Both the position numbers and the translations under genes were made by a program. The notes below the pieces were generated by a model. It was given only the letters and a program-made list of their open reading frames with translations. It ran no database searches and had not been told where the DNA came from. From an uncultured Chryseobacterium sp. (GTDB lineage Bacteria; Bacteroidota; Bacteroidia; Flavobacteriales; Weeksellaceae), in contig CAJYWD010000049.1 in assembly GCA_913778505.1 (NCBI GenBank), positions 1 through 57,063 on the forward strand: 57,063 bases of DNA. The letters run 5' to 3'. How positions within the stretch are numbered: the first letter of the stretch is position 1; each line of letters opens with the position of its first letter. This document shows positions 5,345-52,070 of this stretch, piece by piece.

Positions 5345-5354
5345 TACTATTGAT

Positions 5355-6815: not shown

Positions 6816-6918
6816 TTTATTAGATTTTAAATAACAATAGCCTGTCACTGTTGAAAATTGTATCAAGTTTTTATTCCTAACACAGCTTTCAAAATTATCA
6901 CTAAAGTTATGATTAAGA

Positions 6919-6952
6919 TAAAAAATGAAAGAGGTTTTTGAGACCTCTTTCA
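6919..6952 (-). terminator. Terminator of the SusC-SusD-lipoprotein operon
   Basis: A perfect ten-base-pair stem TGAAAGAGGT / ACCTCTTTCA (6926-6935 with 6943-6952) is followed by a T run on the minus strand. It separates the SusCD genes from the GH30-GH16 genes. Confidence 0.85.
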
Positions 6953-6976
6953 CCTAAGAATATGATAAGAAAAAAT

Positions 6977-7636
6977 TTAGTTCACACCGCGGAATTCTAC
7001 TTTAGAAATAGAAATACCGTCTTTCATATCATTACCACCAGACCTGATGGCAAAGTATGCTACTCCACTTTTAGTTGCCGTAAAAATTCCATCAGGATTA
7101 TTGGCATTTTTAGAACCAAAATTTGAAATTTTACCTTCGAAAGCACTTGAACCACTACCCGCCCAAGTGTTGATAGCTCTTAGCCACGTTGAATCGTTTC
7201 CATCCCTGTGTAATCATTATTTGCGGTAGGTTTTGTATAACCAACATAGATTTCGAACCACGAGTCTGAAACACCTTTGGAGCTAACTACAGCATCAGCT
7301 TTGTATTTACGGCCTTGTACAACCTGAACTTCCTGATACATCACATTTCTGTCCCAACCTTTAGCTGTGAACGTGGCTTTACTATTTGTAAAATCCCACA
7401 CCCAGAGCGCTGTATTAGATGGATTAGGAAAAGTCAACGACCATTTTGCAACGTCTGCAGCATCTGCAAACTTCCCGCCCTGAATCATATGTTTTTGTCA
7501 CGGTGAATGATGCATCGGAGTTCGTAGGAGTTAGTGCATTTCCGTCACCATCTATGGTATCCGGTACACAAGATGAAACTGCAATTGCAAGCGAAAGGAC
7601 GATTAATGACTTATTTTTAAATATTGTTGTTTTCAT
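6977..7636 (-). pseudogene. Frameshifted surface glycan-binding-type lipoprotein (third gene of the Sus operon)
   Basis: The reading frame opens with a lipoprotein signal (MKTTIFKNKSLIVLSLAIAV then SSC, Cys23) 12 bases after the SusD stop. It reads FTVTKTYDSG, then shifts frame near 7475-7483 into GGKFADAADVAKWSLTF and on through WFEIYVGYTKPTANNDYTG. It shifts again near 7195-7206 into NDSTWLRAINTWAGSGS and ends DGISISKVEFRGVN at 6977. The two shifts compensate, and the three pieces join into about 219 residues resembling a CBM4-like beta-sandwich. Position suggests a SusE/SusF-type surface glycan-binding protein. Both shifts fall in G-rich runs, so sequencing error is as likely as true inactivation. 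Confidence 0.7.
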
Positions 7637-7648
7637 AAATCTATACTA

Positions 7649-9202
7649 TTAGTAATTCTGATTTTGCTTTAAAGCTGTATTCAATAATTCTGCATAAGGA
7701 ATAGGTAAAACTTCATTTTTGTTCGCTACAAATCCTTTAGATGACAAAGCAGAAGGTGCATCTCCCCATCTTACAAGATCAAACCATCTGTGCCCCTCTC
7801 CTGCTAATTCTTTTCTACGCTCGTCCTTTATTGCCTGCATACTAACCGGTACTGATGGAATTCCTACTCTTGCTCTAACAGCATCAAGTAACGCTTGTGC
7901 CCTCGCACCTGTTCCTCCTAACGCTTCTGCTTCCATAAGATAACTATCTGCTAAACGTATTACTATGTAATTCTGTCTAAAATTAAGTTCCATTGAGCCT
8001 GGAAGATCGGATACACCTTTTCTAAAAGGCGCATATTTTTTGAGAAAATATCCTGTGTCGGCATAAGCTGGAGAGTAAGTTATTTTTCCTTCATTCTGCA
8101 ATTTTTTTGCATTAAGAATAGTAGCTTCTGCCCGGGGATCATTTTGCATAAAATTAAAAAGGTTATCGGAAAGGGTGTTAAATGCCCAACCAGAAACGAT
8201 GTCAGGTGCATTGCTCCCTGAAGCCAAATTATATGATCTGGGCCCTGTCATTATACAAATAGAGTTACCTTCATCTTTTCCTTGCCCCCAAAAACTCCAG
8301 TCTGACATACCTGCATTAGTATATACTGCTTCAAGTATTGATTCGCTAGTGAATTTATTGTATTCATATTTACCTGGGGATACTTCAGATAATTCAAAAA
8401 GTTTGTTGTACTCATCTACTAATTTGTAACCATATTGGCTGGTCTGTCCTGGTGTACCATTGACTTGAGCAAACTGTGCCGCAGCTTCTGTATTTTTTTT
8501 GTCATACAAATAGATTTTTCCAAGTATTGCTCTGGCGGCTCCTTGGGTAATTCTACCATTTTCTGCACCTCCAACAGTCATCGGCAAATCATTTACAACA
8601 GCCAAAATATCATTTTCGATTTGATTATAAACCTCCGCTTTAGGTGTTTGAGGTATATTCCAATAATCATCAGTCGAGCTGATTCTTTTTAATATGAGAG
8701 GAACATTACCAAACATTTTAACCAGCTCAAAATAGTATAACGACCTTAAAACTGTGACCTCTGCTATTATCCGTTTTTTGAAGTTTTCGGAAACTGGAGC
8801 ATCAGGCATTCTTTCTAAAACCCAATTGGCATTAGCCACACCTTGGTAAAAATCTTTCCAGTAGCTCGCAGGCATAACGATAGGATTAATGGTATAATTA
8901 TTAAATCCTTGGATGCCTGCACCATCTGTTGAACTACCACCACCAGAATAAAAATCATCAGAACCAGCATTAAAAAATGTTACCATATTTTCAAAACCAC
9001 CGGCGTACTTTTTCATTTTATCGTAAACAGACGCCGTTGCGCTAAGGCATTGGTCTTCTGTCTTGAAATAATTAACATCATCAAATGAGCCTATATTTTC
9101 AACATCACCGATGTAATCCCCTGTACAATTTATACTTGCGACACTTAATCCTGCAAGCATAATGACAGACAAAGTCTTCGATATAATTCTTCTATTTTTC
9201 AT
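7649..9202 (-). CDS. SusD/RagB-family surface glycan-binding lipoprotein
   Basis: This 517-residue lipoprotein (signal peptide ending ASINC, Cys26) shows the SusD pattern. The N-terminal TPR-like part contains FDDVNYFKTEDQCLSATASV and YYFELVKMFGNVPLI. The C-terminal part has NYIVIRLADSYLMEAEAL followed by DERRKELAGEGHRWFDLVRW, the family's most conserved stretch. SusD caps the SusC channel outside the outer membrane and hands glycan to it. It begins 11 bases after the SusC stop, so both are made from one transcript. Ligand specificity is inferred from the neighbouring glucanases only. Confidence 0.93.
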   Translation of the reverse strand: MKNRRIISKTLSVIMLAGLSVASINCTGDYIGDVENIGSFDDVNYFKTEDQCLSATASVYDKMKKYAGGFENMVTFFNAGSDDFYSGGGSSTDGAGIQGFNNYTINPIVMPASYWKDFYQGVANANWVLERMPDAPVSENFKKRIIAEVTVLRSLYYFELVKMFGNVPLILKRISSTDDYWNIPQTPKAEVYNQIENDILAVVNDLPMTVGGAENGRITQGAARAILGKIYLYDKKNTEAAAQFAQVNGTPGQTSQYGYKLVDEYNKLFELSEVSPGKYEYNKFTSESILEAVYTNAGMSDWSFWGQGKDEGNSICIMTGPRSYNLASGSNAPDIVSGWAFNTLSDNLFNFMQNDPRAEATILNAKKLQNEGKITYSPAYADTGYFLKKYAPFRKGVSDLPGSMELNFRQNYIVIRLADSYLMEAEALGGTGARAQALLDAVRARVGIPSVPVSMQAIKDERRKELAGEGHRWFDLVRWGDAPSALSSKGFVANKNEVLPIPYAELLNTALKQNQNY

Positions 9203-9213
9203 TGTTTCTTAAT

Positions 9214-12111
9214 TTAAAATTGAATGTTTGCACCAAATAAAAATGTTCTTGCTTGTGGATAATATGCTCTGTCTATACCATATTCATTACCACCTGCGAT
9301 TTCAGGATCGTATCCTGTGTATTTTGTGAATGTGAAAAGGTTTTCACCAGTTACAAAAATTCTTACTTTGTTAGCCCCGAACTTTGTAGTGACATCCTTC
9401 GGAATTGTGTATCCTAATGAAACTAACTTAATTCTCATATAATCTCCTTTCTGTAGGTAATATTTTGACATTTTTGTGTAGTTGCCATTCGGGTCGTTAC
9501 GAGTAAGTCTCGGATTATCATTTGTAGATCCCTCTCCTGTCCATCTGTTAAGAATAGCAGTCTGATAATTGGCATCCAGCATGTCCAATCTTCTAAGGCC
9601 CTGAAGTAGCATATTGCCACCCTGTCCTTGGGCGAAAACCATTAAATCAAAGTTTTTGTAATTCATATTCACCGTAAAACCATATGTGAATTTAGGAAGA
9701 GAACTTCCAATATCTACCATATCGTCCTGAGTGATTTTCCCGTCTCCGTTATTATCTTGCCAAATGAAATCTCCAGGTTTTGCATTGGGAATGATCAAAT
9801 CGCCACTGCTATTTGTATAGGAGTTGATTTGCTCTTGATTTTGGAATACGCCACTATAAGTATATCCATAAAATGTCCCAACAGGTTTACCAACTTGTAA
9901 TCTAGAAACAGGTCCCATCGAATGTAAACCAGCAAATTCTCTCCATTCTACATCATCCTCGAGGCGCAAAACCTTGTTTTTACTGGCAGAAAAATTACCA
10001 TTTAAAGATAGACTGAAATCTTGCCAATTCTTCTTATATCCTAACTCAAATTCCACACCCCTATTTTCCATATCACCAATATTAGCAAATGGATCGGTAG
10101 GTACACCTACATAACCAGGAATGGCTACACGACGAAGTATATCCTTAGTTTTCTTATAATAATAATCAAAGCCTAATGTAAAATCATTTAGAAATCGAAT
10201 ATCAGCTCCAATATCACTCTGTGCAGTCTCTTCCCACTTAAGATTAGGGTTTCCTAAGGTGTTAGGACTGTAGCCAATGATTATAGTAGGATCTATTTCT
10301 CCATTTGGGTAATTGCTGCCTGAGACAAGAGAACTTCTATACATAAAATCCTCAATAGCGTCGTTACCTAAGACACCGTATCCTCCACGTATTTTTAGAG
10401 TATTGATGATTTCATTATCTTTCCAGAATCCTTCTTTATGCACATTCCATCCTGCTGAGAAAGATGGGAAATTACCCCAATATTTTAAAAACTTGGATGA
10501 TCCATCTCTTCTAAATGTACCTGTAAAAAGGTATTTGTCTTGATAATCATAAATAAATCTTCCAAAATAAGATGCTCTTCTTGTTTGTGGTGTGTCCCAG
10601 GCACTGGCTGTAATACTCTTGGCATCAACCGCGTAAAAAGCTGCTTCGTACCAGTTTTCTACAGGTATATTACTGTAAGTAACACTTTGACCCGAACCAA
10701 TATTATATCTGTAAACTCCCTGTCCCAGCAAAATATTAAAATTATGGTCACCTAACCTTTTTTGGTAGCTTAAGGTATTTTCCATACTCCATTCAAATTT
10801 AGTCTGAGTTACTCTATTCAAGTTGTTATTTACTAAATTGCTGAGAGTTGGGCTTAAATAGAACTTAGGCGTAAATCCCTGGCTGCCCCAATAAGATTTT
10901 TTTCCGTTTAATGTGGTTTTGAAAGTTAAACCTTCTGTAAGTTTAAGCTCCGCAAATACATTTCCAACAAAATCATCAGACCAACCATATCTACCCTGTT
11001 GTGTGTATCGATATGCTAATGGATTAGACATTTCCTGATTTACCCAAGGTGATATCCCGTACGGATTTCCGTTTGGATCTCTAATAATATAAGCGTTGGT
11101 ATAATTCGCAGGATTAACTTGTGACCAGTCAGTAACCACAGCAGGTGTGGTAGGATCAAGGTTAATTGCTGAACTTAGTGGGCCACCGAATGTCTCATTG
11201 ACTCCAATACCTTGGCTTTTTTGATGGGTATATAGAAATGTTTGACCTACTGTTAGAACATCGAGTACTTTATGTGTAGAATTTAAACGAGCATTGATTC
11301 TTTTGTAATTTGATATGTCGCCCATTACAATACCGGTTTGATCGAAATAACCAAATGATGCATAATAAGTAGATTTATCATTTCCACCATTGATGCTTAC
11401 TTCGTGAGATTGTCTGTCTCCTGTATTAAATATTGTATCTTGCCAGTCCGTACCGATACCGAACATATTTGGATTTGTAAACCTAATGGGAGAATTATCG
11501 TTTGCAAATCCTTCATTAATTATTGTTGCGTACTGCGTAGCATTAAGTAAATCTAATTTTCTTGCGGCTTGCGATGTTCCAAAACTTCCATTGTAAGCTA
11601 AATTCAAAACACCTTTCTTTCCTTTCTTTGTTGTTACTAGAACAACACCTCTTGCAGCACTGACTCCATAAATTGCAGATGAAGCACCATCCTTTAGGAC
11701 TTCGATACTTTCAATATCTGATTGATTTAACCATCCAATTCCATCAACAATAATTCCATCGACAACCCACATTGGATCATTACCTCCTGCACCAAAACTA
11801 GTAAGACCTCGGATTCTTACTGTAGCTCCTGAACCTGGTTGCCCGGAATTAGTTACTACAGATACACCAGCTGCCCTTCCTTGTAAAACCTGCTCAGGCT
11901 TGCCTGCTGGAATATCTTCAATATCCGAAGCTTTGATACTGGCAATGGCTCCTGTCACATTGCTTTTCTTTTGAGTTCCATAGCCGATGACAACTACCTC
12001 CTCAATAGTTTTCTCCTTGGAAGTCGTGTCGCTGGCCTGTTGTGCCGAGTAGTTGGCTGTGAAGTAAAGTACAGCTGCTAACCCAAGACATTTTGAATAC
12101 TTTAAGTTCAT
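9214..12111 (-). CDS. SusC/RagA-family TonB-linked outer-membrane transporter
   Basis: This 965-residue outer-membrane receptor has a signal peptide ending near TANYSAQQ, a TonB-box-like segment EEVVVIGYGTQKKSNVTGAI, and a plug with QVLQGRAAGVSVVTNSGQPG and GATVRIRGLTS. A 22-strand barrel follows, and the protein ends in FLFGANIQF with a terminal Phe. It is shorter than many SusC proteins because the usual N-terminal carboxypeptidase-regulatory-like domain is missing. With SusD it imports oligosaccharides using TonB/ExbBD energy. It is the first gene of the operon, divergent from the MFS/NrtR pair. Confidence 0.94.
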   Translation of the reverse strand: MNLKYSKCLGLAAVLYFTANYSAQQASDTTSKEKTIEEVVVIGYGTQKKSNVTGAIASIKASDIEDIPAGKPEQVLQGRAAGVSVVTNSGQPGSGATVRIRGLTSFGAGGNDPMWVVDGIIVDGIGWLNQSDIESIEVLKDGASSAIYGVSAARGVVLVTTKKGKKGVLNLAYNGSFGTSQAARKLDLLNATQYATIINEGFANDNSPIRFTNPNMFGIGTDWQDTIFNTGDRQSHEVSINGGNDKSTYYASFGYFDQTGIVMGDISNYKRINARLNSTHKVLDVLTVGQTFLYTHQKSQGIGVNETFGGPLSSAINLDPTTPAVVTDWSQVNPANYTNAYIIRDPNGNPYGISPWVNQEMSNPLAYRYTQQGRYGWSDDFVGNVFAELKLTEGLTFKTTLNGKKSYWGSQGFTPKFYLSPTLSNLVNNNLNRVTQTKFEWSMENTLSYQKRLGDHNFNILLGQGVYRYNIGSGQSVTYSNIPVENWYEAAFYAVDAKSITASAWDTPQTRRASYFGRFIYDYQDKYLFTGTFRRDGSSKFLKYWGNFPSFSAGWNVHKEGFWKDNEIINTLKIRGGYGVLGNDAIEDFMYRSSLVSGSNYPNGEIDPTIIIGYSPNTLGNPNLKWEETAQSDIGADIRFLNDFTLGFDYYYKKTKDILRRVAIPGYVGVPTDPFANIGDMENRGVEFELGYKKNWQDFSLSLNGNFSASKNKVLRLEDDVEWREFAGLHSMGPVSRLQVGKPVGTFYGYTYSGVFQNQEQINSYTNSSGDLIIPNAKPGDFIWQDNNGDGKITQDDMVDIGSSLPKFTYGFTVNMNYKNFDLMVFAQGQGGNMLLQGLRRLDMLDANYQTAILNRWTGEGSTNDNPRLTRNDPNGNYTKMSKYYLQKGDYMRIKLVSLGYTIPKDVTTKFGANKVRIFVTGENLFTFTKYTGYDPEIAGGNEYGIDRAYYPQARTFLFGANIQF

Positions 12112-41196: not shown

Positions 41197-41270
41197 GGCC
41201 TCGTGGCGCAACTGAATAGCGCATCTGATTACGGCTCAGAAGGTTACAGGTTTGAATCCTGTCGAGGTCA
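41197..41270 (+). tRNA. tRNA-Arg (anticodon ACG)
   Basis: The cloverleaf is clear: acceptor GGCCTCG paired with CGAGGTC (one G-U), D stem GCGC/GCGC, anticodon stem TCTGA/TCAGA around loop TTACGGC (anticodon ACG), and T arm GGTTTGAATCC. The discriminator is A and CCA is not encoded. The A34 is presumably edited to inosine to read CGN codons. It is directly followed by a terminator and a decayed recombinase, suggesting use as an integration site. Confidence 0.95.
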
Positions 41271-41271
41271 C

Positions 41272-41715: not shown

Positions 41716-41825
41716 AGATAGATTCGGTGTTATTGTAAAAAATTCCGACGCAATTATTAATAATAGGTATTAATCCCTATAAAAAAAGTGGGTTTCTCTT
41801 TATTGATTAGTAATCTACACCTTGA

Positions 41826-41833
41826 TAATTTTG
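41826..41833 (+). promoter_or_regulatory. Candidate promoter of the secreted-protein/MORN operon
   Basis: TAATTTTG matches TAnnTTTG, and ATTG 20 bases upstream (41802-41805) is a three-of-four match to the -33 TTTG. Transcription would start near 41840, leaving a 37-base leader to ATG 41877. Confidence 0.45.
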
Positions 41834-41876
41834 TTTCAGCTTATACGACTAAATATTGTGATTCCTGAAAATAACT

Positions 41877-42422
41877 ATGAAGCCTTATCTGATTTTCCGT
41901 TTTATGTTAATAATGCCCTTTTTTGTAAAATCCCAGCAGAGAGATTACAAAGCTTTGCTCGACAAGATTTATCTGTACAGTAATGATGATTTCACAGCGA
42001 TTACCGGCTTGCAGACAGATACTTTGTCGGTTTTCTATCCGTCTAATTTACAGACAGATGTAGGTGAAATAACTATAGCAAAAATGAAAGTTGCCACCAC
42101 TCTAAATTGGCAAATTCCGCTCGGTCAATCGGAAAAAGTGATGGCAGATACGCAGCTTTTCATCAAAGAAAAATACCACGATAAAAACATTTATGACATT
42201 ATCACTGATGATTCTGAAGAAAACTACAAACTAACTTATGTTTTTATGAAAACCCCAAAATCGAATCACTTCATCATATTCAAAACAATGTACTACAAAG
42301 ATGACGCTCAGCCACTGAACAGCAATTTTTCCATCATAATGTATGGACAAAATATCAGATCAGGAAAAACCAATGAAAGACTCATCAAGAAACAAAATAA
42401 AACTGAAATACTATTAAAATGA
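41877..42422 (+). CDS. Secreted protein of unknown function, operon gene 1 (paralogue A)
   Basis: The 181-residue protein has a signal peptide (MKPYLIFRFMLIMPFFVKSQ, cleavage near SQ). Near the mature N-terminus is YSNDDFTAITG and near the end FSIIMYGQNI. Equivalent words recur in the proteins at 42419 and 45754, at the same relative places, so I see them as distant paralogues. The rest is mixed alpha-beta and has no catalytic signature. The basic tail (RLIKKQNKTEILLK) is unusual for a mature secreted protein. Its stop overlaps the next start by four bases (ATGA). It is the first gene of the nine-gene operon. Confidence 0.7.
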   Translation: MKPYLIFRFMLIMPFFVKSQQRDYKALLDKIYLYSNDDFTAITGLQTDTLSVFYPSNLQTDVGEITIAKMKVATTLNWQIPLGQSEKVMADTQLFIKEKYHDKNIYDIITDDSEENYKLTYVFMKTPKSNHFIIFKTMYYKDDAQPLNSNFSIIMYGQNIRSGKTNERLIKKQNKTEILLK

Positions 42423-42928
42423 AAAAATTACTCTATGTTTTGGCAATGCTAACCTTCACACTGAATGTTGCCCAAACGACCAAAAGTTATAAATTTCCAA
42501 TATCATTAATGATCCAGTATGCTCAGAATGATTTTAAAGACATCCTTGGCGATAAACTGGAATCCATTCCCGATCTGGAATCGGCTTATTACAAACCGAA
42601 AGAAATCATTGGCATCGGATCAGAAAGCTTAATCAAAAGTGATAATTCTGACAAAACATTCTACATCTGCTCTGCCCTTCTTTTGTCAGAACACACCAGT
42701 CAATTCATAGAAGATGCTTTAAAAGTCGTTAATGACGGTGTACAGGCTGGGAAATTTTCCGGAAGAGATTATACCGATGAGAAAGGCAGAAGTATAACAG
42801 AGGTTTACCAAAAAGACAGTGACGTGGTCATCAGGTTGATCTCTTCGTACGATAAAGATGCTGATGATGACAATAACACCTTTTCGATGATGATCTATGG
42901 CAATACGCTTGGGAAAATGATGAAATAA
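42419..42928 (+). CDS. Secreted protein of unknown function, operon gene 2 (paralogue B)
   Basis: The 169-residue protein has a typical signal peptide ending NVAQ. The signature AQNDFKDILGDKLESIPDLE near the N-terminus and FSMMIYGNTLGKMMK at the C-terminus match paralogue A (NDDFTAITG, FSIIMYG). The middle region has a conserved-looking YKPKEIIGIGSESLI and SGRDYTDEKGRSITEVYQKD. The ending resembles a small alpha-beta domain that could self-associate. It is translationally coupled to gene 1 and lies 15 bases before the Sel1-MORN gene. Function unknown. Confidence 0.7.
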   Translation: MKKLLYVLAMLTFTLNVAQTTKSYKFPISLMIQYAQNDFKDILGDKLESIPDLESAYYKPKEIIGIGSESLIKSDNSDKTFYICSALLLSEHTSQFIEDALKVVNDGVQAGKFSGRDYTDEKGRSITEVYQKDSDVVIRLISSYDKDADDDNNTFSMMIYGNTLGKMMK

Positions 42929-42943
42929 TTTCAATTCTTTAAG

Positions 42944-44599
42944 ATGAAACGTATATCTGTTTTAATTTCATTAGTTTTTTACACGATGGTATATGGCCAG
43001 ATAGCTCAATCGGAAATGGATGAAGGGATTTCTGATTTCAGGGAGAAAAAATATGAAAATGCCAAAGCATGGTTTGAGAAAGCTGCAAAACTAGGAAATC
43101 CCGATGCTTTTTACAATGTTGGTCTGTTATACGAAAACGGTTTAGGTGTACAAAAAAATATTGCCGAAGCGGTAAAATGGTACGAACAAGCCGGCGGATT
43201 GGATCATGTAAAAGCTCTGCAGTCGCTTTGTGATATTTACTACAACGGTGAAGGTAACCTGCCAAAAGATTACAAAAAAGCCTTTTTCTGGAACAAAAAA
43301 TTAGCCGATAAAGGTAACGTTATGAGTATGAATACAATAGGCGTGATGTATTTTTATGAACAGGGAACTGACGCAAAAGATACCTTTGATGGCTTAGAAA
43401 AGTCTGTGTACTGGTTCAAAAAATGCCTGGATTCAGATACCAAAACGGAGAATGATGAAGAAAACTGTAAACAGGGTTTAGAATTTTGTGGAACTAAATA
43501 TTTCAATGCAGGGCTTGAATCATTTAATTCAAAAAATTATGATGATGCCCTTTCTAATTACACAAAAAGTGCAGCAGTAGGCATTTCTGATGCGATGACC
43601 AATCTCGGGATGATGTACTGGAAAGGAAATGGCGTTAAAACAGACTATGACAAAGCAAAAGTTTGGTTCCAAATGGCTGCCGAAGCCGGGAATAAAGTTG
43701 CTGCTGCTAATCTTAAACAAATTGAAAATAACAAAGCCGTAACAACGATAAAAGTAAGGCAGGAAGACGGCTCTTACAAAGAAATTCCCTGGGATGATAA
43801 TTTGCGGGGCTATGTAAAACTGGATTTAGGAGATCTGGTCTATGAAGGTGACATAGCAGGAAAAAATGCCCACGGAAAAGGAAAAGTGATCTATAGTGAA
43901 GGAGATCGTTATGAAGGTGATTTTGTAAACGGAATGTTTGACGGCCAAGGTAAATATTATGCAAAAAATGGCTCATTGATCTATGAAGGTCAGTATAAAG
44001 AATTCAGGAAAAATGGCAAAGGCATTTATTATTACTTAGGTACCGATGCAAAATACGACGGCCACTGGAAGGATGATCTCGAAAATGGTGCCGGAACTTT
44101 CTATTTTTCATCGGGTGTTTTCCAAGGCAATTGGATCAACGGCGAAAAACAGGGAAAAGGAAAAATGATGTGGCAGGACGGTACCATCTACGAGGGGAAT
44201 TATGACAAAGGTGTTCTTACCGGCGAAGGTTCAATAACTTATGCCGACGGAACTGTCTCAAAAGGAATTTTTAAAGATGGAAACGCTTCAGGAAAATGGC
44301 TTTACACAAGGAAAGACGGCACTACCGAAGAACGTTTCTACCAAACACCCGGAATCTATTCGGTATATGTAAAAAACCAAAGTCCCGTTGAAAAAACCCG
44401 CTTCAATGATGATAAATTATACAGTGAATGGTGGGATAAAACCTATGGCAGAGGAACACAGCTGAATCTGCCCAATAACAACAATTCATCCTCTTCTTTC
44501 CAGATAGGAAAAGAATCGGAAGCAGACCGCCACAGAAGAGAAATGGACAAAATCATCTGGAGTACTCAGAAACAAATGGAAAGAAGTTTTAAATACTAA
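42944..44599 (+). CDS. Secreted Sel1-repeat/MORN-repeat fusion protein
   Basis: This 551-residue protein has a signal peptide ending MVYGQ. Residues about 22-260 are Sel1-like TPRs, e.g. AKAWFEKAAKLGNPDAFYNV then GLLYENGLGVQKNIAEAVKW, and later AMTNLGMMYWKGNGVKTDYD. From about 298 to 455 at least six MORN repeats follow with the pattern YEGxxxxGxxxGxGxxxxxxG (e.g. DRYEGDFVNGMFDGQGKYY). The tail is polar and Ser/Asn-rich (NNNNSSSSF). Both modules usually mediate protein or lipid contacts, so this is a likely scaffold in the periplasm or at the surface. No enzyme domain is present. Confidence 0.85.
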   Translation: MKRISVLISLVFYTMVYGQIAQSEMDEGISDFREKKYENAKAWFEKAAKLGNPDAFYNVGLLYENGLGVQKNIAEAVKWYEQAGGLDHVKALQSLCDIYYNGEGNLPKDYKKAFFWNKKLADKGNVMSMNTIGVMYFYEQGTDAKDTFDGLEKSVYWFKKCLDSDTKTENDEENCKQGLEFCGTKYFNAGLESFNSKNYDDALSNYTKSAAVGISDAMTNLGMMYWKGNGVKTDYDKAKVWFQMAAEAGNKVAAANLKQIENNKAVTTIKVRQEDGSYKEIPWDDNLRGYVKLDLGDLVYEGDIAGKNAHGKGKVIYSEGDRYEGDFVNGMFDGQGKYYAKNGSLIYEGQYKEFRKNGKGIYYYLGTDAKYDGHWKDDLENGAGTFYFSSGVFQGNWINGEKQGKGKMMWQDGTIYEGNYDKGVLTGEGSITYADGTVSKGIFKDGNASGKWLYTRKDGTTEERFYQTPGIYSVYVKNQSPVEKTRFNDDKLYSEWWDKTYGRGTQLNLPNNNNSSSSFQIGKESEADRHRREMDKIIWSTQKQMERSFKY

Positions 44600-44604
44600 A
44601 TATT

Positions 44605-45069
44605 ATGAACAAAAAAAATATATTGATCCTATTCATCTTTGTATTGGCTGCGAATCTGAAAGCTCAGATTTCCAATGATTTCGCTAAAGAAGTTACCGCA
44701 GTTCTAGGTGCAAAAGCAAGCTCCATCGTAGGAAAAGAAATAGAAAAACAAGCTTCGGCAACAATTTATGACACAAAACTAAAGATCTCAGGTTTTGATC
44801 TCACCTATGCCGAAACTATATTTGGAGATGATCTCAGCGGGAGATATATAGGAACTTCTAGTGATAGTGTAATGGACGCTATCTCGCAGCAACTTACAAA
44901 CATCCCTTATCAAATCCTTGACAGCCAACAAACGCCGGAAATCATCAGCAAAAGTATTTTCGACAGTGATGTTCTGAGAAAAATCATCATAAAGGATAAG
45001 AAAACTCAAGAAAAAGTAATGACCATAACACGATTTAAAGACTACATCCTGATGGAAGTTTTCGTTTAG
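44605..45069 (+). CDS. Secreted protein of unknown function, operon gene 4
   Basis: The 154-residue protein has a signal peptide ending ANLKAQ. The mature protein starts with FAKEVTAVLGAKASSIVGKE and ends TITRFKDYILMEVFV. It lacks the NDF...G and IYG words of the three paralogues, so it is kept separate. Predicted structure is helix followed by strands. The gap to the Sel1-MORN gene is five bases, strongly suggesting co-translation. No known family is recognised. Confidence 0.65.
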   Translation: MNKKNILILFIFVLAANLKAQISNDFAKEVTAVLGAKASSIVGKEIEKQASATIYDTKLKISGFDLTYAETIFGDDLSGRYIGTSSDSVMDAISQQLTNIPYQILDSQQTPEIISKSIFDSDVLRKIIIKDKKTQEKVMTITRFKDYILMEVFV

Positions 45070-45113
45070 AAGATAATGATTCCATTCACCATTAAAAACA
45101 ATAAAATCTACTT

Positions 45114-45743
45114 ATGAATAAACTACTCTACACCATTCTGCTCCTGACGACCTTTGCAAGCGCATTCGCACAGATAGGCATCAAGGCAGGTATGAACATC
45201 AGCAAATATTCCTATTCGGAACAATCATTTGATATTGACAGACATAATATTCTGGCATATAACATCGGTATCAATTACAAACAGCCCATCGGCAAGACCT
45301 TTTCATTCTGGCCAGAGCTTATTTACACCTTGAAAGGTGCAGACATCTACCATTCTTATCCCATTGGTTCTACAGGTCCAATGAAATATACCAACGAATT
45401 CAGTTATCTCCAGCTCAATCTTCCTGCAGTTGCAGTATTTGAAATCAGCGACAATATAGACTATGAACTGGGCGCCGGATTATTCGGTGCCTATCTGACA
45501 AATGCCAAGGTTAAGGTTGAAGAATTTGACGGGTCATCTACAACCAAAAAGTATGAAAAAGATGATTTAAAAACGATGGATTTTGGGTTGGTTTTTACGA
45601 CCGGCATCAGGCTTAACAAAACTTTGGGGCTTAATATCAATTATGATTTGGGGCTTCAGAATATTGAGCCGGATTCAGAAGCACCAAAAATCAAAACAAG
45701 AAATTTCAGTATCGGGATTTCCTGGCTTTTTTCAAAAGATTAA
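45114..45743 (+). CDS. Outer-membrane beta-barrel protein (porin/PorT-like family)
   Basis: The 209-residue protein has a signal peptide ending SAFAQ, followed by IGIKAGMNISKYSYSEQSFD. This is the usual start of eight-stranded outer-membrane barrels in Bacteroidetes. Alternating strands run through SFWPELIYTLKGADIYH, YELGAGLFGAYLTNAKV and GLVFTTGIRLNKTLGLNINY, and the chain ends FSIGISWLFSKD. It could anchor or export the other secreted products of the operon, but this is inference from co-location. Confidence 0.8.
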   Translation: MNKLLYTILLLTTFASAFAQIGIKAGMNISKYSYSEQSFDIDRHNILAYNIGINYKQPIGKTFSFWPELIYTLKGADIYHSYPIGSTGPMKYTNEFSYLQLNLPAVAVFEISDNIDYELGAGLFGAYLTNAKVKVEEFDGSSTTKKYEKDDLKTMDFGLVFTTGIRLNKTLGLNINYDLGLQNIEPDSEAPKIKTRNFSIGISWLFSKD

Positions 45744-45753
45744 AACGTCAATT

Positions 45754-46263
45754 ATGAAAACAATTTCAACCATAGTAGTTCTATGCAGTACATTCTTTTG
45801 CAAGGCTCAAAGCTACAAAAACGATATGAGCAAGCTTCTGGAAGATGCAAAGAACAACTTCAAAAACATTACAGGTCAAAAAAAATCTGAATCTGATGGT
45901 TTCATTACCTATGCATGTACTGCGCCCAACATGTTTGGCGAGATGGGTGATATTTTATTTGATTCCAAAACCGGAAAAAAAGCTTACTCAATGAGAATCA
46001 AATACGGCACGGAGACGGAAAAAATCATTCAGGATCTGGACCAGTTAATTGATGAAAAATTTCCGGCGCCAAATTATATTGTTTTTAATGACATAGACGA
46101 AAATGGTAACGAAGATATTGCAGTATTCTCAGGAGATGCTACTCCAAAAGAGCAAAAAAAACAATACCTCTCCTACTACATTGACGTTAATCCGAATACC
46201 AAGGCAAAAATTTTCGAATTGGCTATCTACGGCTTTTCGGACAAAACATCAGAAAATCATTAA
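45754..46263 (+). CDS. Secreted protein of unknown function, operon gene 6 (paralogue C)
   Basis: The protein is 169 residues from ATG 45754 (MKTISTIVVLCSTFFCKAQ, signal peptide). A longer frame from 45583 overlaps the barrel gene and lacks a signal. AKNNFKNITGQKKSESDGFI at the mature N-terminus and FELAIYGFSDK at the C-terminus match the words in paralogues A and B. In between, IVFNDIDENGNEDIAVFSGD contains an Asp-rich stretch that could bind calcium. The gap to the barrel gene is ten bases. Function unknown. Confidence 0.7.
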   Translation: MKTISTIVVLCSTFFCKAQSYKNDMSKLLEDAKNNFKNITGQKKSESDGFITYACTAPNMFGEMGDILFDSKTGKKAYSMRIKYGTETEKIIQDLDQLIDEKFPAPNYIVFNDIDENGNEDIAVFSGDATPKEQKKQYLSYYIDVNPNTKAKIFELAIYGFSDKTSENH

Positions 46264-46277
46264 TAAAAACTTTCCAG

Positions 46278-47864
46278 ATGAAAATACAGCTTCTTTTTAT
46301 ATCAATATTTTTTGCCTTACGCCTTTCTTCACAGGAAAAGCTGGAATTCAAAATCTTACTGCCAAATGAGACAGATTCAATCCTCATTAAATATAAAGGT
46401 GAGGTCAGTAACGGAAAAGCAAATGGACAAGGCATCGCTACTGACGCCAAAGACCGAAAAACAAAAATCTATGAAGGCGGCTGGAAGAATAACATCTTCG
46501 AAGGTCAGGGAAAAATCTATGAATTTGGTCTCAGGTACGACGGGAGCTTGAAAAACGGAAAACCCGATGGATACGGCAAATGGTATTACATCTACACCTC
46601 TGGGCTAACACGATATGAGGGCGAGTGGAAAGATGGCAAAAAAAACGGTAAAGGCAGGCTGTATTCCTATGTGCCATACAAATATGATGACAGCCAGTAT
46701 TATGATGGAGATTGGAAAGATGACCAGCGAAATGGCCATGGGAAACAGATTACCGACAACGGCTCGTACGAAGGCAACTGGACAAATAACCAAAAAGACG
46801 GAAAAGGAAAATACATCTGGAATACCGGCGGAAGTTATGACGGTGAATGGCAACAGGGCAAAATCACCGGTTTTGGAATCTATAAATATGCAAATGGTGA
46901 TGTCTATGAAGGCAGTCTGGATGATGGACAGAACTCAGGTTTTGGTAAGATAAGTTACGCTAATGGTAATTATTATGAAGGAACTTTTAAAATGGGATAC
47001 TGTCACGGCAAAGGTAAAATGATATGGAAAGACGCAGAAACCTATGAGGGAGATTATGTTTTTGGAAAAAGAACAGGACAAGGAAAGATGATATGGCCTA
47101 ATGGGGATACTTACGAAGGCGGTTTTGTCGAGGGACAATTGGACGGTGAAGGTAAATTCATCGCAAAAAATGGAGAATCCTACAGCGGTGGCTGGAAAAA
47201 TGGACTGAAGGAAGGCTATGGAACTTACATTTCAAAGGACAAAGAAATTTATATAGGAAATTTTCTCTACGGAAAGTACAACGACAGAGGTTTTCTGACC
47301 AAAGAAGACGGCACCATACAGGACGGATACTTTAAAGCCGGTCAGTTCATAAGGGCTGCCAATCCTATTAGTATAAAGAAGTACACCAACGGAACTTATG
47401 AGGGCGAAATCCGGGATGGCGAACCCGAGGGAAGGGGCAAAATGACCTTCACAGATGGCAGAATCTATGAAGGTGACTGGAAAAATAAAACCATCAACGG
47501 TTGGGGAAAAATGTTAATGCCAAAATCCGGGATGATTTTCAGCGGATTTTGGGAAAATGGTCACATGCTGGATGGGCAAAAAATATATCCAAAAACCGGA
47601 GATTATTACTATGGTAAATTTGTAAATGATAAGCCGGAGGATCCAAAAGGTAGATTTTACTGGAAAAATGGAACCACATTGGAAGCACCATTTGCCGGTG
47701 GCAAACAGATTCTGGGCGAGGGAACCGTAAGAAAAGCAGATGGCTGCATTATCGCAGGACCATTCGAAAACTACAAATCTGCCGGAAAAATGAGCCATTA
47801 CGGGACTTGCGGCAATCAGGCAGAATATTGGAATCCTGAATCTATTATGGATGAAAATTTATAA
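46278..47864 (+). CDS. Secreted MORN-repeat protein
   Basis: The 528-residue protein has a signal peptide ending RLSSQ. Nearly the whole mature chain consists of MORN units of about 23 residues (YEGxWKxGxxxGxGxxxxxxG), for example YEGGWKNNIFEGQGKIYEFG and YEGDYVFGKRTGQGKMIWPN. I count well over twelve. There is no kinase or other catalytic domain. MORN arrays form long beta-sheets that bind lipids or act as rulers. In the periplasm the role is unknown. The C-terminal 60 residues, with DGCIIAGPFENYKSAGKMSH and two Cys, are less regular and could be a cap. Confidence 0.88.
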   Translation: MKIQLLFISIFFALRLSSQEKLEFKILLPNETDSILIKYKGEVSNGKANGQGIATDAKDRKTKIYEGGWKNNIFEGQGKIYEFGLRYDGSLKNGKPDGYGKWYYIYTSGLTRYEGEWKDGKKNGKGRLYSYVPYKYDDSQYYDGDWKDDQRNGHGKQITDNGSYEGNWTNNQKDGKGKYIWNTGGSYDGEWQQGKITGFGIYKYANGDVYEGSLDDGQNSGFGKISYANGNYYEGTFKMGYCHGKGKMIWKDAETYEGDYVFGKRTGQGKMIWPNGDTYEGGFVEGQLDGEGKFIAKNGESYSGGWKNGLKEGYGTYISKDKEIYIGNFLYGKYNDRGFLTKEDGTIQDGYFKAGQFIRAANPISIKKYTNGTYEGEIRDGEPEGRGKMTFTDGRIYEGDWKNKTINGWGKMLMPKSGMIFSGFWENGHMLDGQKIYPKTGDYYYGKFVNDKPEDPKGRFYWKNGTTLEAPFAGGKQILGEGTVRKADGCIIAGPFENYKSAGKMSHYGTCGNQAEYWNPESIMDENL

Positions 47865-47888
47865 TATATTTGTATAAAACTAACGCAA

Positions 47889-49631
47889 TTGAAAACCAAT
47901 ACATTAATACTCTTTTTCGGAGTTTTATTTTTACTGAAAATCCCTGCTCAAAACGTTTCTCCGGAAGAAAAAAAGCTGGAGTATGCGAGAAAATTACTGG
48001 AAAACTACCAGCTGGATTCGGCGGAAGTCCAGCTTAAAGAACTAGCCAGGCCGGAACTGGCAAAACATCAACCCAAAATCTATATCCGTACGGAGCTAAA
48101 CCTGGGAAGACTCTACGGCGATAAAGGTGAGAATGTAAACGCCCTTCAGCATTATCTGAAAGCTTTGAAAACTGCTGAAACTACCAATGACAAAGAATCT
48201 CTGGCTCACGTTCTCAAAAATATTGGTGTGCTGTATGTGAGCTGGAAAAAACTGGATGAAGCATTTGCTTATTATGAAAAATCGGAACAGCTGGCGAGAG
48301 AGATTGGAGATAAGGAATTAATCGCCGACTGCCAGAATAATAAAGGCATTGTCTATGAGCAGAAAAAGGAATATGCAAAAGCACTTATTTCCTATAAAAA
48401 TGCGCTTGAACTTTATACCGAAAAGGATATTCCCGGGAAGATTTCTATGGCATTGAGCAATATCGCCATCGTGTACAAATTCCAGAAAAATTATCCTGAA
48501 GCCATCAGTTATAACTTTAAAGCAATCACCATTGCGGAAAAACAAAATGACAAATGGAATATGGCCGCAACATATAACAACATTGGTAATCTTTATGGCG
48601 AAATGGGCGATTACAACAAAGCGATCGAATATTGTGAAAAAGCCCTTAAAATCGCCAAAGAAATAGATGCAGGTGAGATCATAGAATCCATCTACGACAG
48701 TATGGCAGAAGCGGCTGTGAAAGCAGGAGATTATAAGAAAGCCTATGAATACCAAAAGCTGTTTTCCACAGCAATGAATGATTTCATTAACAAAGAAAAT
48801 ACCAGGCAACTTTCCGAACTTAATGTCAAATATGAAACTGAGAAGAAGCAAAACCTGATCAACAATCAAAAATTTGAAATCAGGCAAAAAAACAACTGGC
48901 TCAGGTTTGTCGCAATTTTATTTTTGATCTCCGTCATTGCTGCCTATCTTATTTACAAAAACTACCGACACAGGCAGGATAGGAAATTGCAAGAAGAAAT
49001 TTACAGACAGAAAGAACTAGAGGCCAAGGCTCTTTTTGATGGTGAACAGAATGAGAGGATCCGGATTGCAAGAGATCTGCACGACAGTGTGGGACAGATG
49101 CTGTCATTAATCAAAATGAATATTTCTGCACAAGAAAAAAATACAGAATCAGAACAAATACAGAATTTAATTGATAAAACCATCTCCGAGGTCCGGATGA
49201 TTTCGCATAATCTGATTCCTGAAGAGCTTAATTTCGGACTTATTCCTGCTTTGGAAAATCTGGCCGATAAAATCAACGCAACGGAAAAAACCAAAATAGA
49301 GTTAGAAATTCCGGAAAATGTCAGGTCTATAACATTTCAGAAGCAAAATGAACTTTCCATGTACCGGATTGTTCAGGAACTTCTAAACAATATAACAAAA
49401 CATGCCGAAGCGTCCTTGATTCAGCTGTCTGCTGAAAAATCAGACGATTACGTTCTTTTCAATATCCGGGATAATGGTAAAGGCTTGGACCTAGATTCCA
49501 TCGCAAATTCCCCGGGCATTGGCTGGAAAAACATCAATGCAAGAATTCACATGATGGATGGATATCTGAATATCAAATCGGAAAGTCTCAAAGGCACAGA
49601 AATAGAAATCACATTGCCGTGTAATGGATAA
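47889..49631 (+). CDS. TPR-containing sensor histidine kinase (NarL/DesK-type)
   Basis: The 580-residue protein starts at TTG 47889 (MKTNTLILFFGVLFLLKIPAQ, signal peptide). A periplasmic TPR domain (about 25-315) contains repeats such as EAFAYYEKSEQLAREIGDKE and AATYNNIGNLYGEMGDYNKA. One transmembrane helix (about 336-355) follows. The kinase core is HisKA_3-type, with the phospho-acceptor His398 in RIARDLHDSVGQML. The HATPase domain has QELLNNITKHAEAS (N box) and IRDNGKGLDLDS (G box). It overlaps the response regulator by eight bases. The TPR sensor may detect the operon's own secreted proteins. Confidence 0.93.
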   Translation: MKTNTLILFFGVLFLLKIPAQNVSPEEKKLEYARKLLENYQLDSAEVQLKELARPELAKHQPKIYIRTELNLGRLYGDKGENVNALQHYLKALKTAETTNDKESLAHVLKNIGVLYVSWKKLDEAFAYYEKSEQLAREIGDKELIADCQNNKGIVYEQKKEYAKALISYKNALELYTEKDIPGKISMALSNIAIVYKFQKNYPEAISYNFKAITIAEKQNDKWNMAATYNNIGNLYGEMGDYNKAIEYCEKALKIAKEIDAGEIIESIYDSMAEAAVKAGDYKKAYEYQKLFSTAMNDFINKENTRQLSELNVKYETEKKQNLINNQKFEIRQKNNWLRFVAILFLISVIAAYLIYKNYRHRQDRKLQEEIYRQKELEAKALFDGEQNERIRIARDLHDSVGQMLSLIKMNISAQEKNTESEQIQNLIDKTISEVRMISHNLIPEELNFGLIPALENLADKINATEKTKIELEIPENVRSITFQKQNELSMYRIVQELLNNITKHAEASLIQLSAEKSDDYVLFNIRDNGKGLDLDSIANSPGIGWKNINARIHMMDGYLNIKSESLKGTEIEITLPCNG

Positions 49632-50277
49632 AAAAAATATAATCAACATATTAGTTGCAGATGATCATCAAATGATGATTGACGGCATCAGAAACCTCTT
49701 GATCAAAGAAGCCGATTTTAATATCGTGGAGGAAGCCAATAATGGTCAGGTTGCTTATGAAAAAGTGGTAGCAAATCCCGACAATATCAACTTGATTCTC
49801 ACCGACATCAGCATGCCTTTACTAAGCGGAACTGATCTTTGCAGGATGATCAAAAGCGAGTTTCCCCATATCCAGGTTTTAATACTTTCAATGTATAACA
49901 ACTCAACAGCAGTAAAGGAAGCGGTTTTGGCGGAAGCGGACGGCTATATTCTGAAAAATTCCGGAAAAGACGAACTTCTGTGCGCCATACACCGGATTGT
50001 GAACGGAGGTACCTATTTCTCTCAGGATATTATTCCTCTCATTTATAATCAATACCACAAAGAGAAAATTCAAAATCAGCAAATCTCTTTGCTTACAACC
50101 CGAGAGCGTGAGATCCTAAGCCTTATTGTGAAAGAAATGACCAGTGAGGAAATTGCAGAACAACTTTTTATCAGTAAGAAAACCGTTGATAATCACCGCC
50201 AGCACATCTTGGAAAAGACAGGCTGCAAAAGTACTGTTGGATTGGTGAAGTTTGCAATTAAATATGAGATTGTATAA
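49624..50277 (+). CDS. LuxR/NarL-family response regulator
   Basis: The 217-residue protein has an N-terminal receiver with acidic pocket VADDHQMMIDG, phosphorylation site Asp61 in ILTDISMPLLSG, and Lys in GYILKNSGKDEL. The C-terminal LuxR-type HTH is LTTREREILSLIVKEMTSEE then IAEQLFISKKTVDNHRQHIL. It is the cognate regulator of the kinase, whose gene overlaps its own. The target is probably the operon promoter near 41826, but no operator is recognised. Confidence 0.95.
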   Translation: MDKKNIINILVADDHQMMIDGIRNLLIKEADFNIVEEANNGQVAYEKVVANPDNINLILTDISMPLLSGTDLCRMIKSEFPHIQVLILSMYNNSTAVKEAVLAEADGYILKNSGKDELLCAIHRIVNGGTYFSQDIIPLIYNQYHKEKIQNQQISLLTTREREILSLIVKEMTSEEIAEQLFISKKTVDNHRQHILEKTGCKSTVGLVKFAIKYEIV

Positions 50278-50600: not shown

Positions 50601-52070
50601 ATGAAGTACAATCTCTGTATATTATTTTTATTTTTTAATTCTATTTGGCATGCACAGAGCTCTGTAAAAAACACAGACAGTCTTTACAATGTTGTATATT
50701 CTGATACGAACTTTACTAAAAAGAATGAGCTTTTACTTATACAGACGTGTAATGATATTTATAGAGAATCGGTCGATAAGGGTGATGATGAAACTGCACT
50801 TCGATCATTGACAACAGTCATAAGAGTATACAATGAAAATAATGAAACTATAAATGTCCTGCAAAGGATTGAGAAAGGAATCTCTCTTGCCCGCAAACAG
50901 AGTGACGATTATAGACTTGGACTTCTTTACATTTACTTGGGAGATGCATTTTTTAGTACCGGATTTTTTGAAAAGGCAAAAAACTCTTATGCAACAACTT
51001 TTAAGCTCTCCTCCAAAATAAAGGACAAGGATCAAAGACACATTTTAAGATTGCAATATTATGGGGCTATGGCAAAGATTTTTGAAGCCAGCAATCCTAG
51101 CATTGGTCAAGCGGAAAATACACCCATAAAAGACTCCATCTTGTATTATGTAAAGAAAGCATACGCTGAAGCAAAAATGATAAGTCCCAAAAACTCTGAA
51201 AGACCACGCTGGCTAGGCGAAAGAGCGCGTATCACCGGATCGGTACTGGTAGGGAATCTGCGTTTTGATGAAGCTAAAAAATATCTGGAGGAAGCAGAAG
51301 TTTTACTATCGGGACTCAGCGATAAAAGATTTATGATCGGACTTTACCGATTCCAAGGGATGTTAATCTACAATTCAAGAGTAGAAAACAGGCTCAGCAA
51401 GACATTGGAACTTTATAAAAAATGCCTATACCTTACCGAACTGTATGATACCCCAGAACGGAAGTACCTCATTGCAGATGCTCTTGCTGAATTATATTCG
51501 GAGATGAAAATGCCTGCTGAGGCCAGAAATTTTTCTGATGTCAGCAAGAGAATAAAATATGAAATTGACAAAAGCTACCGGGAAGCAACACCAATGGCAG
51601 GAAAAATTGAACTGTCATCACTAGAAGGTGCTCAGTCTTTCCCTTTTTTCAAGTCTGCAATCATCTTATTTAGTTGTGCGTCGGCAATTTATTATTTCCT
51701 GAACAGAGCAAAAAAGCGAAACATCCGCCCTATCCTGGAAGGCGCTGCAATTCCGATTAGTGATGTCCTGCCACATACTGAGAAAATACAGCAACTATTG
51801 GATCTAGCAAGAAACGATGAAAAATCATTTTACATAGTCTTTAAGCAAGTTTTTCCTGATTTTCAAAGTAAATTACTTGAGATTAATAGTGAATTATCGG
51901 TTTCAGATCTGGAATTATGTGCTTATTTAAAATTAAATCTTCAGACCAAAGAAATAGCAACGTATAAAAAAAATACAATTTCATCAGTGGATAACCGTAA
52001 ATCTAGACTGAGGAAAAAACTAAACCTCTCTTCAGATACCAATCTCTATGTCTGGATTGATCATATTTAA
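50601..52070 (+). CDS. TPR-transmembrane-HTH regulator (LuxR-like C-terminus)
   Basis: This 489-residue protein has a signal peptide (SIWHAQ) and a periplasmic TPR region (about 20-330; RLGLLYIYLGDAFFSTGFFE, AKKYLEEAEVLLSGL). One membrane helix lies near 353-368 (AIILFSCASAIYYFLN). The cytoplasmic C-terminus contains DLELCAYLKLNLQTKEIATY followed by KKNTISSVDNRKSRLRKKL, a LuxR-like helix-turn-helix. Flavobacteria have many such one-component membrane regulators. No kinase domain is present. It probably regulates the genes to its right rather than the upstream operon. The target is unknown. Confidence 0.82.
   Translation: MKYNLCILFLFFNSIWHAQSSVKNTDSLYNVVYSDTNFTKKNELLLIQTCNDIYRESVDKGDDETALRSLTTVIRVYNENNETINVLQRIEKGISLARKQSDDYRLGLLYIYLGDAFFSTGFFEKAKNSYATTFKLSSKIKDKDQRHILRLQYYGAMAKIFEASNPSIGQAENTPIKDSILYYVKKAYAEAKMISPKNSERPRWLGERARITGSVLVGNLRFDEAKKYLEEAEVLLSGLSDKRFMIGLYRFQGMLIYNSRVENRLSKTLELYKKCLYLTELYDTPERKYLIADALAELYSEMKMPAEARNFSDVSKRIKYEIDKSYREATPMAGKIELSSLEGAQSFPFFKSAIILFSCASAIYYFLNRAKKRNIRPILEGAAIPISDVLPHTEKIQQLLDLARNDEKSFYIVFKQVFPDFQSKLLEINSELSVSDLELCAYLKLNLQTKEIATYKKNTISSVDNRKSRLRKKLNLSSDTNLYVWIDHI

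Follow-up and report, generated by a model that had tools for sequence, protein, structure and literature searches.

What holds together, and what switches, a run of genes that joins secreted repeat proteins and an outer-membrane barrel to a two-component pair? The question is raised by nine genes at 41877-50277 in DNA of an uncultured Chryseobacterium sp. (assembly GCA_913778505.1, contig CAJYWD010000049.1); the window analysed here is this one whole contig of 57,063 nt, from an assembly of 3.4 Mb. A preliminary description of the locus proposed an envelope assembly or stress module whose periplasmic tetratricopeptide repeat (TPR) sensor reads the state of its own secreted proteins. The data presented below suggest that the operon is probably a self-regulated export module, switched by a two-component system, whose sensor cassettes have been replaced over evolution. 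Its genes and predicted regulatory sites are the following.

41763..41780, plus strand: operator palindrome ATAGGTA-N4-TCCCTAT, putative site of the response regulator (RR), one mismatch to ATAGGTA-N4-TACCTAT
41802..41833, plus strand: predicted promoter, ATTG (-33 region) at 41802-41805, then 24 nt, then TAATTTTG (-7 box) at 41826-41833
41877..42422, plus strand: gene 1, small secreted-looking protein of family F1 (AlphaFold model, mean pLDDT 83.8)
42419..42928, plus strand: gene 2, small secreted-looking protein of family F1
42944..44599, plus strand: gene 3, secreted-looking Sel1-MORN fusion (Pfam Sel1 and MORN over cut-off)
44605..45069, plus strand: gene 4, small secreted-looking protein of a separate family, F4
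45114..45743, plus strand: gene 5, outer-membrane beta-barrel, family F5 (Pfam OMP_b-brl_2 over cut-off)
45754..46263, plus strand: gene 6, small secreted-looking protein of family F1
46278..47864, plus strand: gene 7, secreted-looking MORN-repeat protein (Pfam MORN, 13 stretches)
47865..47872, plus strand: TATATTTG, putative internal promoter serving genes 8 and 9, 24 nt upstream of the gene 8 start codon TTG
47889..49631, plus strand: gene 8, histidine kinase with a TTG start (Pfam TPR, HisKA_3 and HATPase_c over cut-off)
49624..50277, plus strand: gene 9, NarL/LuxR-type RR (Pfam Response_reg and GerE over cut-off)

A check of the open reading frames returned the nine genes of the preliminary description with identical coordinates. 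The spacings between genes 1-9 are, in order, -4, 15, 5, 44, 10, 14, 24 and -8 nt, and 323 nt separate gene 9 from the following gene (50601-52070). Genes 1-8 begin with a signal-peptide-like hydrophobic N-terminus and gene 9 does not, as judged by a hydropathy heuristic only; the eight signal peptides proposed earlier were thereby recovered. Pfam likewise bears out the Sel1-MORN fusion, the pure MORN protein, the TPR histidine kinase and the LuxR-type RR, and the proposed eight-strand-type barrel stands as far as the OMP_b-brl_2 match of gene 5 carries it. Genes 8 and 9 form a HisKA_3-type kinase and NarL-type RR two-component pair, with four domains over cut-off and an 8-nt gene overlap. Signal peptides and barrel make an envelope role plausible. 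The operon is not a chance arrangement, because a second, almost identical genome (G150) carries the same operon with protein identities of 99.6-100% and related operons occur elsewhere.

The RR turned out to be a better marker of the module than the pure MORN protein. The 11 MORN matches of the window's assembly (E 0.001) are confined to genes 3 and 7. Among 197 genomes of the family, four match the pure MORN protein (E 1e-10): G000 and G150 hold the same operon, and the other two, G006 and G109, show no match to gene 8 or 9 within the surrounding 20 kb. For the RR, a search of 320 genomes of the family at E 1e-75 found matches in four, which belong to a single genus. At E 1e-80, matches were present in four of 395 genomes of the class (that of the window among them) and in 12 of 394 from the Chitinophagaceae-type family to which G333 belongs; six of these 12 were already in the profile. 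A scan of GTDB contigs with the RR gave 42 loci, 11 of them with an RR at least 69% identical in the best segment. The hosts of these 11 are uncultured Chryseobacterium SP131 (two loci, one being the window's operon at 99.6-100%), Flavobacteriaceae bacterium PS02293, Epilithonimonas mollis DSM 18016 (locus L020), a Weeksellaceae metagenome-assembled genome, Sphingobacteriales 44-61, Taibaiella sp. KBW10, T. chishuiensis, Edaphocola aurantiacus, Terrimonas ginsenosidimutans and Chitinophagaceae LY-5. The core clade was taken as 12 loci, namely the window (W), L019-L027, L049 and L076; L018 was left out as a duplicate of the window, and L076, the locus of G998 with an RR at 70%, was added together with the window. 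This clade was defined before the operator was noticed, with its boundary set by profile score, and L078 (RR 68%) lies outside it since it scores with a more distant group of eight loci (54-68% identity). The core RRs are 67-86% identical to that of the window, and their hosts are Weeksellaceae and Chitinophagaceae. Plasmid relatives of the RR, 130 records, are all below 60% identity. The module defined by the RR is rare and conserved, and its composition is not a one-off.

The genes of the module stay linked while much of the cargo varies. At 11 of the 12 core loci the stretch from operator to RR contains secreted-looking genes, on the strand of the RR, with export signals of the relatives' cargo judged by eye from the N-termini; at L021 none adjoins. 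A TPR kinase is adjacent to the RR at 10 loci, overlapping it by 4, 8 or 14 nt, and cargo occurs together with both RR and kinase at nine. With an operator-promoter at all 12 (see below), these counts support the single co-regulated module proposed earlier. The F5 barrel is present at nine loci, F1 at eight (at three of them as a tandem F1-F1 protein) and F4 at seven. The large repeat proteins vary from locus to locus: W and L022 have MORN, L026 has WG, L024 has WG and Sel1, L019 has a DUF5122 propeller carrying a type IX secretion tail (Por_Secre_tail), and L027 has BNR with such a tail. The first gene at L019, L020 and L027 codes for a lipoprotein-like product of 178-180 aa. The RR is the last gene of the operon; the next gene is on the opposite strand at eight core loci and at least 130 nt away at the remaining four. 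Neither F1 nor F4 occurs at eight paralogous TPR-kinase loci of the genus. Single homologues scattered without linkage to the pair, which the preliminary description saw as speaking against a module, were for the most part not the pattern found, with exceptions for F1 (outside the module in three of seven genomes, detailed below) and for the MORN protein in G006 and G109.

At L021 (8094-8266) a kinase-RR pair stands with its cargo apparently deleted. What is left is a possible remnant of the end of gene 7, together with the operator, 172 nt before the kinase.

What would switch the operon is suggested by the DNA in front of it. In Bacteroidota the -7 box occupies -12 to -5 with the sequence TAnnTTTG, according to the accessible part of the source (PMC9723704). 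By this position, the predicted +1 falls near 41838 and, by arithmetic from the -7 box, the centre of the palindrome near -66. A transcript starting at about 41840, as foreseen in the preliminary description, agrees with the operator and promoter at 41763-41833. Loci were scanned for a composite of the palindrome ATAGGTA-N4-TACCTAT with up to 3 mismatches, 19-22 nt, ATTG, 23-25 nt and TTTG. The composite was found at 12 of 12 core loci, always with a first gap of 20 or 21 nt and a second of exactly 24 nt, and it is followed by the first cargo gene or, in L021, by the kinase. Order-1 Markov-shuffled sequence (8.7 Mb) gave one composite match. Another 48 loci (661 kb) held no composite at the 20-21/24 spacing and three matches with other spacings, two of which came from L130 and L138, members of a set of six (L130, L136-L140) that had been chosen for pattern matches. 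As an off-spacing control, a distance of 16-22 nt between the -33 and -7 elements gave 5 matches, spread over 5 genomes out of 394; no RR operon was among them.

The exact composite pattern was also sought in 19 RR-bearing genomes, where it occurs at 17 places: 12 RR operons (in 11 genomes), one detached cargo operon and four elsewhere. All 17 tabulated sites carry the N4 spacing because the pattern fixed it. A reversed control pattern gave four matches in the same genomes, and in the window's genome (3.4 Mb) the exact pattern matches only at 41766, within the palindrome. At the eight distant RR loci the full composite is present in L077, L078 and L080, and in six the palindrome follows the RR immediately on its 3' side, before the next gene; L079 and L084 have neither. 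Eight paralogous TPR-kinase loci of the genus, with RRs 30-39% identical (in the seven where an RR was found), show no palindrome at up to 2 mismatches and none at 3 with ATTG in place. Taken together, it is most likely that the kinase-RR pair controls the operon, itself included.

Two further operator sites stand in trans, before detached cargo genes. On another contig of G150 (C17), the operator precedes a gene for a 179-aa lipoprotein-like product and one for a 413-aa BNR protein, which are 75-82% and 68.5% identical, respectively, to module genes in relatives; relatives of these genes sit inside the L027 module. G150 also has a second kinase-RR pair, L021, without cargo. In Terrimonas G333, a lone F1 gene on another contig, 40% identical to gene 2, is preceded by an operator-promoter at 3 mismatches. 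The lone F1 genes L102 and L103 have no composite operator. As to separate promoters for each gene, the other pattern named against the module in the preliminary description, the sequence points to two promoters, the second before the kinase. The latter is suggested by TATATTTG, which occurs within 150 nt upstream of seven of the 10 kinases, as compared to about 0.07 expected (background about 0.005 per 100 nt), for a motif picked after the sequences were seen. In W, L019, L020 and L021 the kinase begins with TTG or GTG instead of ATG (for L020 as read by eye), and the motif precedes this start by about 23-24 nt. Such starts perhaps keep sensor levels low.

The kinases themselves are of two parts with different histories. 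Gene 8 has a TPR sensor at about residues 21-295, a conserved membrane-proximal segment, a transmembrane stretch near 337-355, and HisKA_3 and HATPase domains. Mean pairwise identity among the 10 kinases is 28% in the sensor vs. 63% in the kinase part, and their RRs have 76% (REC) and 77% (HTH); the aligned kinases other than the window's start after an upstream stop codon, so a few untranslated N-terminal residues are included. The sensors fall into five types: W, L021 and L049; L020 and L026; L022, L024 and L025; L019; and L027. Two types join Weeksellaceae with Chitinophagaceae (W-L049 at 65% and L020-L026 at 46%). L019 and L020 are 86% identical in the kinase part vs. 25% in the sensor, with a step near residue 280-300. 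The sensor topology and the kinase plus RR topology reject each other in the approximately unbiased (AU) test, with p of 0.001 on sensor data and 5e-5 on kinase plus RR data; on RR data alone p is 6e-104. Whole-kinase exchange is possible for some pairs, and it fails to explain L019-L020 or L019-L027. As judged from these alignments, the sensor half is exchanged while kinase and RR stay conserved, and the kinase is chimeric across relatives.

These observations can be joined into one mechanism. A TPR domain outside the inner membrane would sense a signal, and the kinase would phosphorylate the RR. The RR would bind ATAGGTA-N4-TACCTAT near -66 and activate a normal Bacteroidota sigma-A promoter, from which the whole operon would be expressed, i.e., the F1 and F4 proteins, the barrel, the secreted repeat proteins and the kinase-RR pair. 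A weak internal promoter before the kinase may provide the basal sensor supply in the uninduced state. Since the pair would be present at a basal level and is also part of the operon, activation would form a positive feedback loop. Replacement of the sensor cassette over evolution would wire different inputs to the same kind of output, a remodelling of the periplasm, outer membrane or surface.

Several points weigh against this export-module reading. Activation is assumed from the operator position, and repression is possible. The motif was derived by eye from seven loci; it is tested independently only at L019, L020, L021, L027 and L076, at the more distant loci and at the sites in trans. The exact pattern missed the RR operon in 8 of the 19 genomes. 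Three of these eight, G106, G328 and G921, carry a mismatched composite (loci L027, L049 and L078 as a set), G408, G442 and G793 have the palindrome without the full composite, and G969 and G500 (L079 and L084) show no recognisable site. On the kinase domain by itself, the AU test favours neither topology (p 0.26). Finally, L023 and L076 have an RR and cargo and no adjacent kinase. L084, at a contig start, also has an RR with secreted cargo and without an adjacent histidine kinase. The RRs of L023, L076 and L084 may be served by a distant kinase.

Does the sensor read its own exports, as the preliminary description suggested? Such a TPR sensor would bind the module's own secreted proteins and monitor them in an assembly or stress feedback. 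Cargo, kinase and RR share one operon at nine of the 12 core loci, and in L021, where the sensor belongs to the type of the window, what seems to be left of the gene 7 3' end precedes the kinase. A polypeptide ligand acting via TPR motifs has been proposed for FimS, as far as the accessible part of that paper goes (PMC11053733). However, sensor types have been exchanged independently of the compared cargo: identities of F1, F4 and F5 do not track the sensor type in this small sample, compared without a formal test. Gene 6 and its L019 relative are 51% identical vs. 26% for the sensors, and L019 and L020 share 79% of F5 and 64% of F4 vs. 25% of the sensor. The detached cargo of G150 resembles that of L027 (68.5%), yet the L021 and L027 sensors are 26% identical. 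The kinase-less loci L023 and L076 retain cargo as well. Self-sensing therefore appears unlikely, although the ligand could be some product other than the compared cargo families.

Polymorphic quorum-sensing receptors such as ComP place variable sensor types on a conserved kinase pattern. By analogy, sensor and a diffusible or contact signal might covary here, with the secreted set answering kin or non-kin. Five discrete sensor types among 10 kinases, with kinase, RR and operator conserved, are in line with this. However, no compared cargo family covaries with the sensor (small peptide genes were not searched for), and two of the types occur in more than one family, pointing to input exchange and not to strain-level polymorphism; we regard such recognition as very unlikely. 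It is very unlikely, too, that the palindrome belongs to another regulator, or that the RR is a repressor, the pair being target and not controller: position alone is no proof of activation, but the palindrome accompanies the RR clade at 12 of 12 core and six of eight distant loci and is absent from the eight paralogous kinase loci.

A bolder form of the export-module reading seems possible, if short of probable. Conserved kinase, RR, operator and promoter would act as a plug-in chassis, onto which foreign TPR cassettes and foreign secreted repeat proteins are swapped independently and across families, giving a modular, self-amplifying surface display with F1 and F4 as the common output.

The small secreted proteins deserve separate mention. 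Genes 1, 2 and 6 are related with pairwise E of 0.001 to 0.15, and their relation is clear as a profile (F1); gene 4 is apart from them, so that three related proteins and a separate fourth were found as described earlier. Genes 1, 2, 4 and 6 have no Pfam match over cut-off, no Pfam family was matched by more than one member of F1 or F4, and the genes scanned against NCBIfam gave none over the cut-offs among the matches listed. Compared by sequence with solved structures, F1 has no match at E 1, and the best for F4 has E 0.036. A fold search with F1 revealed only weak resemblance to PolG2/class II tRNA synthetase domains, YbjN, EagT6 and Mog1p, a range of common arrangements. On these searches, F1 and F4 are two secreted-looking families without a Pfam, NCBIfam or PDB match. 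The 314-333 aa proteins of L022, L023 and L025 were considered as F1-F4 fusions, which was ruled out: clean profiles show tandem F1-F1. Outside the module, F1 genes occur in three of seven Chitinophagaceae genomes with strong matches (224 searched), one of the three with an operator. A wider family of secreted proteins of about 170-195 aa with an F..I.G motif (L105-L111) occurs as single genes in Chitinophagaceae, with weak F1 matches.

A defence scan (PADLOC) found nothing for genes 1-7 at E 0.01, and what it gave for genes 8 and 9 was weak and of TPR, HTH and CARF type; defence and phage family scans of the operon genes gave nothing specific. No Por_Secre_tail, the mark of type IX secretion cargo, is listed by Pfam for genes 1-9 of the window. 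Gene 7 matches crystal structures of eukaryotic MORN1 (best 6t6q, E 1.8e-34), but it encodes a secreted-looking bacterial operon protein, and no functional equivalence is implied.

The GC content of the operon (38.1%) is close to that of the rest of the window (39.1%), with no sign of recent import. A tRNA-Arg (acg) at 41197-41271, about 0.5 kb upstream of the operator, is a possible integration site. Gene 10 (50601-52070), not counted in the operon, encodes a TPR protein with a C-terminal helix-turn-helix, as judged by eye, and a weak BT3442-family match far under cut-off. Further off, the minus strand at 4547-12111 carries two genes resembling glycoside hydrolases, a SusD-like gene and a SusC-like gene, which by eye suggest a locus for polysaccharide use.

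In sensor architecture, the nearest known system is FimS/FimR of Porphyromonas gingivalis. In the accessible part of its description, FimS has a TPR-containing periplasmic sensor of 338 aa and its signal is unknown (PMC11053733). FimR binds the promoter of the first fim-cluster gene (cited therein) and that of mfa1, again as far as the accessible text goes (PMC11053733, PMC1974823). Both systems combine a TPR sensor with a regulator controlling surface-protein gene clusters, the control being predicted in the case of the window. Sensor-cassette exchange, this operator and the F1, F4, barrel and MORN cargo do not appear in the accessible description of FimS/FimR. The NCBIfam FimS model NF053520 matches gene 8 with E 8.5e-29 and 100.3 bits vs. 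an equivalog cut-off of 600, which places gene 8 outside FimS. Pfam and NCBIfam scans of ten proteins found no fimbrial family, and targets elsewhere were sought only by the operator pattern.

ComQXPA-type systems of Bacillus join a variable sensor half to a conserved kinase half and a regulator, whereas here the sensor is of the TPR kind, exchange occurs between families and the output is a secreted-repeat set; no pheromone gene came to light here, none having been looked for. The NarL heptamer is TACYYMT. NarL/NarP of Escherichia coli use a 7-2-7' inverted repeat, according to the accessible part of the source (PMC2718512). Inverted heptamers and a NarL-type RR are common to both, but here the arms are 4 nt apart and in opposite orientation, the arrangement is not 7-2-7', and cargo and promoter class differ.

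No description of such an operon was found in the open-access PMC literature, which leaves subscription journals mostly outside. Sensor replacements on a constant kinase-regulator-operator chassis, together with the predicted site, amount to a ready reporter design, in which one promoter could test any sensor type. If the operator is true, parts of the regulon would be readable from sequence in RR-bearing genomes, including targets off the operon. Secreted MORN, WG and propeller repeat proteins, as well as two unannotated secreted families, gain a regulatory context. In general, the module appears to be undescribed and looks like a reusable device for envelope remodelling.

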